Shown: in pieces, positions 16,625 through 17,472 of the stretch
Numbering within the stretch: the first letter of the stretch is position 1
How the letters are laid out: each line of letters starts with the position of its first letter
Assembly (NCBI RefSeq): GCF_017352215.1
Contig: NZ_CP071444.1
Location: 1,302,001 to 1,366,000, forward strand
Reading direction: 5' to 3'
Source: Alkalibacter rhizosphaerae
GTDB taxonomy: Bacteria; Bacillota; Clostridia; Eubacteriales; Alkalibacteraceae
Length of the DNA: 64,000 bases
Program-made: the position numbers and the translations under genes
The notes under the pieces: model-generated
The model's input: the letters and a program-made list of their open reading frames with translations, nothing else
Databases searched by the model: none
What the model was told of the DNA's origin: nothing

Positions 16625-17472
16625 TTAACAAGTTCCGGCAAGGTAGGTCTCCCTGTACAGGGTGCGGAAATGTTCCCGGACCTCTTCCGCTTTGTCCCGA
16701 TCCCGGAAAAGACCGTACATGGTGGGACCGCTGCCGCTCATGAGACATCCGTCCGCTCCCAGACGGGTGAAGTCTTTCTTGATCTTTCCCAACAGGGGGT
16801 AGGCTTCGAAAGTGCCTGGTTCAAAGACGTTGACCAGCCCCGATTCGATGGTTTTTCGGTCGCCTTTTCGGATGGCTTGGCACATTCCAAGGTTGTCTGG
16901 CCGCAGGAGCCGTTCCCCTGGTTTGAAATGGGAGAAAGCCCATCCGGTGGAGATCCCAAAATCCGGCTTCACCAAAACCACATGGTATTCGGGTAGGGGG
17001 GGCAGGGGGGTCAAAATATTCCCCGTCCCTTCTGCAAGGGCCGTCCCCCCAGCAGGCAGAAAGGCACGTCTGCACCGATGGTGTTTCCCAGGTCCATCAA
17101 GGTTTCCCGGGACATGCCAAGCTCCCACATGGCGTTCAGGGCCTTCAACACCCCGGCTGCGTTGGCGGATCCTCCCGCCAGGCCCGCTTCCAAGGGTATG
17201 TTCTTTTCGATGTGGATGCGGATCCCTTTTCGGATCCCCGCCTTCTCCATGATGACCCGGGCCGCTTTATAGACCAGGTTGGAGGGGTCGCAGGGGATCC
17301 TTGGATCGGTGCAGCCGACCTGGATGCCCCCTTCCCCTTCTTCCAGGGTGAGCACATCGCAAAGATCCACGGTCTGCATGATCATGGACAGATCGTGGTA
17401 GCCGTCCTCCCGTTTTCCCAGGATGTCCAAGGTCAAATTGATTTTTGCCGGTGTTCTTATGGTCGTTTTCAT
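16625..17472 (-). pseudogene. ispE: 4-diphosphocytidyl-2-C-methyl-D-erythritol kinase, with an apparent one-base frameshift
   Basis: IspE phosphorylates CDP-ME in the MEP isoprenoid pathway. The N-terminal part (from ATG at 17472 after GAGG) reads KTTIRTPAKINLTLDI through IPLEAGLAGGSANAAGVLKA, the GHMP-kinase ATP site, to ADVPFCLLGG. It then hits a stop at 17011 in this frame. The frame shifted by one base continues with TALAEGTGNILTPLPPLP and runs through LMSGSGPTMYG to 16625. The break is at a run of six G (17045-17050). One more base would give a normal 282-residue protein. Sequencing error, a real mutation, or -1 slippage are all possible; the pathway is usually essential. Confidence 0.88.

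Follow-up and report, generated by a model that had tools for sequence, protein, structure and literature searches.

A one-base frame break in ispE of Alkalibacter rhizosphaerae is most likely an assembly artefact at a G run

In the window, by which we mean the whole 64,000-nucleotide stretch of DNA analysed here, ispE lies on the minus strand at positions 16625 to 17472, as one gene carried in two different reading frames. The open reading frame of the N-terminal half (17514 to 17011) contains the ATG, at 17472, and stays open through CTG CTG GGG GGA CGG; after ...PFCLLGG it adds about a dozen out-of-frame codons before a TGA ends it. The open reading frame of the C-terminal half (17128 to 16625) is in the frame one base back and encodes TALAEGTGNIL...GSGPTMYGLF..., with the final stop codon ending at 16625. 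The two halves match consecutive, slightly overlapping ranges of the NCBIfam profile TIGR00154 (Table 1), and when the break is read through, the product matches positions 1 to 269 in one stretch with 254 bits (cut-off, 138.7), which places it in the IspE family. Compared with the protein of G002, the same-genus genome that served as the control, both halves retain family-level identity, and the C half is normal. A sequence-only reading of this DNA had proposed that the halves of IspE lie in different frames on either side of a G run and that a -1 slip at that point restores the family sequence; both points are borne out, since the break falls at a run of six G (17050 to 17045) and the read-through product matches the profile over its full length.

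The break in ispE is not an isolated defect. A scan of 664 kb of the 2.45-Mb assembly (the window plus 30 stretches of 20 kb each) was made using a three-periodic codon model in which the frame may change; the junctions were then inspected, and both sides were tested against NCBIfam or Pfam, or against proteins from the same genus. Eleven genes, ispE included, were found to be split within one protein (Table 1). All 11 are one base short (two-sided p of 0.001 for the direction), and a short run of G or C (3 to 6 bases) is present at or near the break in every one; in the majority, the family-matching residues place the break inside that run. G/C runs of at least four bases number 2,999 versus 10,448 A/T runs, and yet an A/T run is the best location for none of the breaks. 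The glycosyltransferase is counted on the strength of its reading frame and codon usage, since its Pfam match is confined to the C half. Two further frame changes, at L097:6127 (coaD-like) and L134:16976 (ABC permease), may represent either long gene overlaps or additional split genes, and they were left out of the count as possible ordinary overlaps.

Table 1. Parts of the ispE locus and split genes in the 664-kb sample (numbers without a stretch label are window positions)
Feature	Location	Strand	Evidence or frame offset
ispE N-terminal half, ATG to CLLGG	17047..17472	-	TIGR00154 positions 1-155, 175 bits; 65% identity to G002 protein (same genus)
Six-G run at frame break, probable place of one missing base	17045..17050	-	Sequence; frame offset one base short
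ispE C-terminal half, TALAEG to stop codon	16625..17047	-	TIGR00154 positions 145-269, 69 bits; 56% identity to G002; GHMP_kinases_C, 48 bits
ispE, split	17045		One base short
ispF (MEP pathway), split	L129:10081 (genome 2,010,081)		One base short
EF-G gene (fusA) adjoining tuf, split	L106:13111		One base short
ackA (acetate kinase), split	L097:3394		One base short; break equally possible in neighbouring T pair
fakA/yloV, split	L097:10027		One base short
prmC, split	L107:2493		One base short
leuA, split	L108:17998		One base short
Peptidase_S11, D-Ala-D-Ala carboxypeptidase, split	L132:4847		One base short
GGDEF protein, split	L136:9707		One base short
EamA transporter, split	L098:4449		One base short; exact break place uncertain
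GT4 glycosyltransferase, split	L105:354		One base short; Pfam match for C half only

Other core genes that were encountered, such as ispH, the gene for DRL (DXR type II) and an EF-G paralogue, proved intact; the rate of errors would thus be low, at roughly one per 60 kb, which counts against systematic sequence errors. The EF-G paralogue is an unbroken frame of 719 amino acids that scores above the EF-G cut-off (G000:C1:1771845-1773899, L173). Because this second EF-G-like gene exists, the split EF-G gene by itself is no proof; the set of split genes as a whole, however, is hard to explain by mutation.

When the same scan was applied to 556 kb of G002, three junctions were left, at least two of which read as ordinary gene overlaps. 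The difference between 11 splits in 664 kb and at most 1 in 556 kb has a p value of approximately 0.007, a comparison between genomes that differ in GC content and one that is uncorrected for this difference. A reciprocal tblastn census gave five "frameshifts" in G002, all of which were discarded because on inspection they looked like antisense shadow open reading frames; two hits in stretch L129 were discarded as well. In its spectrum of homopolymer lengths, the assembly was not clearly truncated relative to G002, and the spectrum therefore gave no independent support to deletion errors.

Whether a broken ispE could be tolerated depends on the state of the MEP pathway. The genome comprises 2,449,552 bases in one contig and is 98.9% complete. 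The sequence-only reading had considered a dead ispE unlikely unless another copy or pathway exists, and had named a second intact ispE or a mevalonate pathway as what would make this copy a plain pseudogene; the genome yielded neither a second ispE nor HMG-CoA reductase. The GHMP kinase N domain occurs in two regions only, namely, ispE itself and a 306-amino-acid gene with a weak ispE match that probably encodes a putative homoserine kinase, and a search of the genome for HMG-CoA reductase was negative. The steps of the MEP pathway that were checked are kept: IspH is intact, and while the genome lacks Dxr, the catalytic domain of DRL is present (224 bits; L150, genome positions 472,242 to 472,727). 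DXR-II has been described in Firmicutes, and Eubacterium limosum is named in a table of that study (PMC3847144). The distribution of Dxr and DRL within the order is patchy, with some genomes carrying both, and each of the five genomes that lack Dxr among the 15 searched has DRL. In this genome, DRL replaces the missing Dxr in the MEP pathway. Most likely, the cell uses this pathway, and a working IspE is to be expected; with no second ispE, no HMG-CoA reductase, an intact IspH and DRL in place of Dxr, a plain ispE pseudogene is implausible. The split ispF and the absence of Dxr had raised the possibility that the pathway is decaying; this was rejected, since DRL is present here and in all of the Dxr-lacking genomes among the 15, and since fusA, ackA and prmC are split as well.

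Relatives provide a second view of the break. An ispE match was found in 39 of the 41 genomes searched, the window's own genome being among the 41; with the sole exception of the window's own, all matches are uninterrupted frames of normal length, and in named genomes, too, the frame continues across the site. The comparison with close relatives that the sequence-only reading had called for thus yielded no split and no slippery ispE, and the site is not conserved even within the genus: same-genus sequences read GGT GGA ACG and GGA GGC ACC at this point, with no G run. Some intact distant homologues (L053, L054) carry GGG GGG ACG, which indicates that a stretch of seven G is a natural coding solution here. 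Removal of one G from such a stretch generates the "slippery" heptamer automatically.

This last point bears on the possibility that full-length IspE arises from programmed -1 frameshifting of ribosomes at the G GGG GGA site, or from transcriptional slippage on the G run. The heptamer is present in frame at the transition (17050 to 17044) and fits the X XXY YYZ pattern, as had been observed from the sequence; a -1 slip there restores the family sequence, and the organism needs IspE. Given its automatic origin by loss of one of seven G, and given that G_GGG_GGN occurs in frame at 12 other places in the 342 long open reading frames of the sample that are not broken, the in-frame heptamer is weak evidence of slippage. 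The frame transition is not conserved among homologues, and no stimulatory RNA structure is predicted downstream, where folding was no better than that of shuffled sequences (z scores of 0.87, -0.51 and -0.52, in a test that does not extend to pseudoknots). In E. coli, the lowest reported frequency for heptamers of this type is 0.018%, for G_GG.G_GG.U rather than GGGGGGA (PMC4066793). The other ten breaks lie mostly at runs of 3 to 5 bases, too short for a heptamer of this kind. Programmed slippage, which the sequence-only reading had raised as the more exciting option, is thus left without support, and we regard it as extremely unlikely. It can also be envisioned that the base counts are real and that many core genes (EF-G, IspE, IspF, AckA and PrmC) depend entirely for their expression on a general -1 slip or gain of a base at short runs of G/C, a proposal to which we give practically no credence.

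Explanations that place the change in the DNA of the cells fare little better. A real one-base deletion would make ispE a recent pseudogene, or would mean that the sequenced culture carried a damaged allele; the frame break is indeed real in the deposited sequence, and ispF, from the same pathway, is also split. Nevertheless, the C half of ispE retains normal identity, DRL and IspH are kept in a genome that has neither HMG-CoA reductase nor a second ispE, and ten other genes are broken in the same direction, including ackA, prmC and the EF-G gene adjoining tuf, a burden that is not tolerable for a living cell; this explanation is very improbable. Phase variation, in which the length of the G run would vary between cells and the assembly would have taken the short allele from a sub-population, is consistent with a break at a homopolymer, a type of tract that can vary through slipped-strand mispairing (PMC3711429). 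However, a run of six G is short by the standard of contingency tracts, the affected genes are housekeeping genes and other break sites have runs of just 3 or 4 bases, so that there is only the slightest chance of its being correct.

Based on these data, it is concluded, with a probability of approximately 0.93, that the ispE split is a systematic one-base deletion error, one of a set at short G/C runs in this assembly. On this view, ispE is a required and otherwise normal gene from whose G homopolymer the deposited sequence has lost one base, and the chromosome most likely carries it unbroken, with ordinary translation. An error of sequencing or assembly is almost certain because at least ten other genes in the sampled parts are split by a one-base loss of the same kind; breaks that agree in size, direction and sequence class, spread over unrelated core genes and rare in the nearest relative, point to a consensus error process. 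The cause most likely lies at the sequencing or consensus step; papers on the probable genus contained no details of sequencing. A missed G in the homopolymer, which the sequence-only reading had named as the simplest cause, is thus the favoured explanation. It agrees with the expectation that unclustered frameshifts with homology support are mostly sequencing errors (PMC3711429).

A tempting claim of recoding in ispE is thereby settled as a likely artefact rather than a real feature of the organism. The split genes of this assembly, essential ones among them, should not be annotated as pseudogenes or as frameshifted genes before accurate reads have been used to check the assembly.

The locus can be compared with three known systems. 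On read-through, the gene is a full-length TIGR00154 IspE (4-diphosphocytidyl-2-C-methyl-D-erythritol kinase), from which the window's copy differs solely by the one-base frame break. With programmed -1 frameshifting at X_XXZ_ZZN, as in dnaX and the IS3 family, it shares a correctly formed heptamer in the appropriate frame; unlike those systems, the ispE site is not conserved, has no predicted stimulator and belongs to a poor class of motif, and breaks of a similar kind occur elsewhere without a heptamer. There is also a likeness to the gene-fragmenting indels of long-read assemblies, in which deletions are concentrated at homopolymers, most frequently those of approximately 4 to 5 bases (PMC12007338): here too, unrelated and essential genes are one base short at short homopolymers, with the distinction that in this assembly the losses fall on G/C runs.
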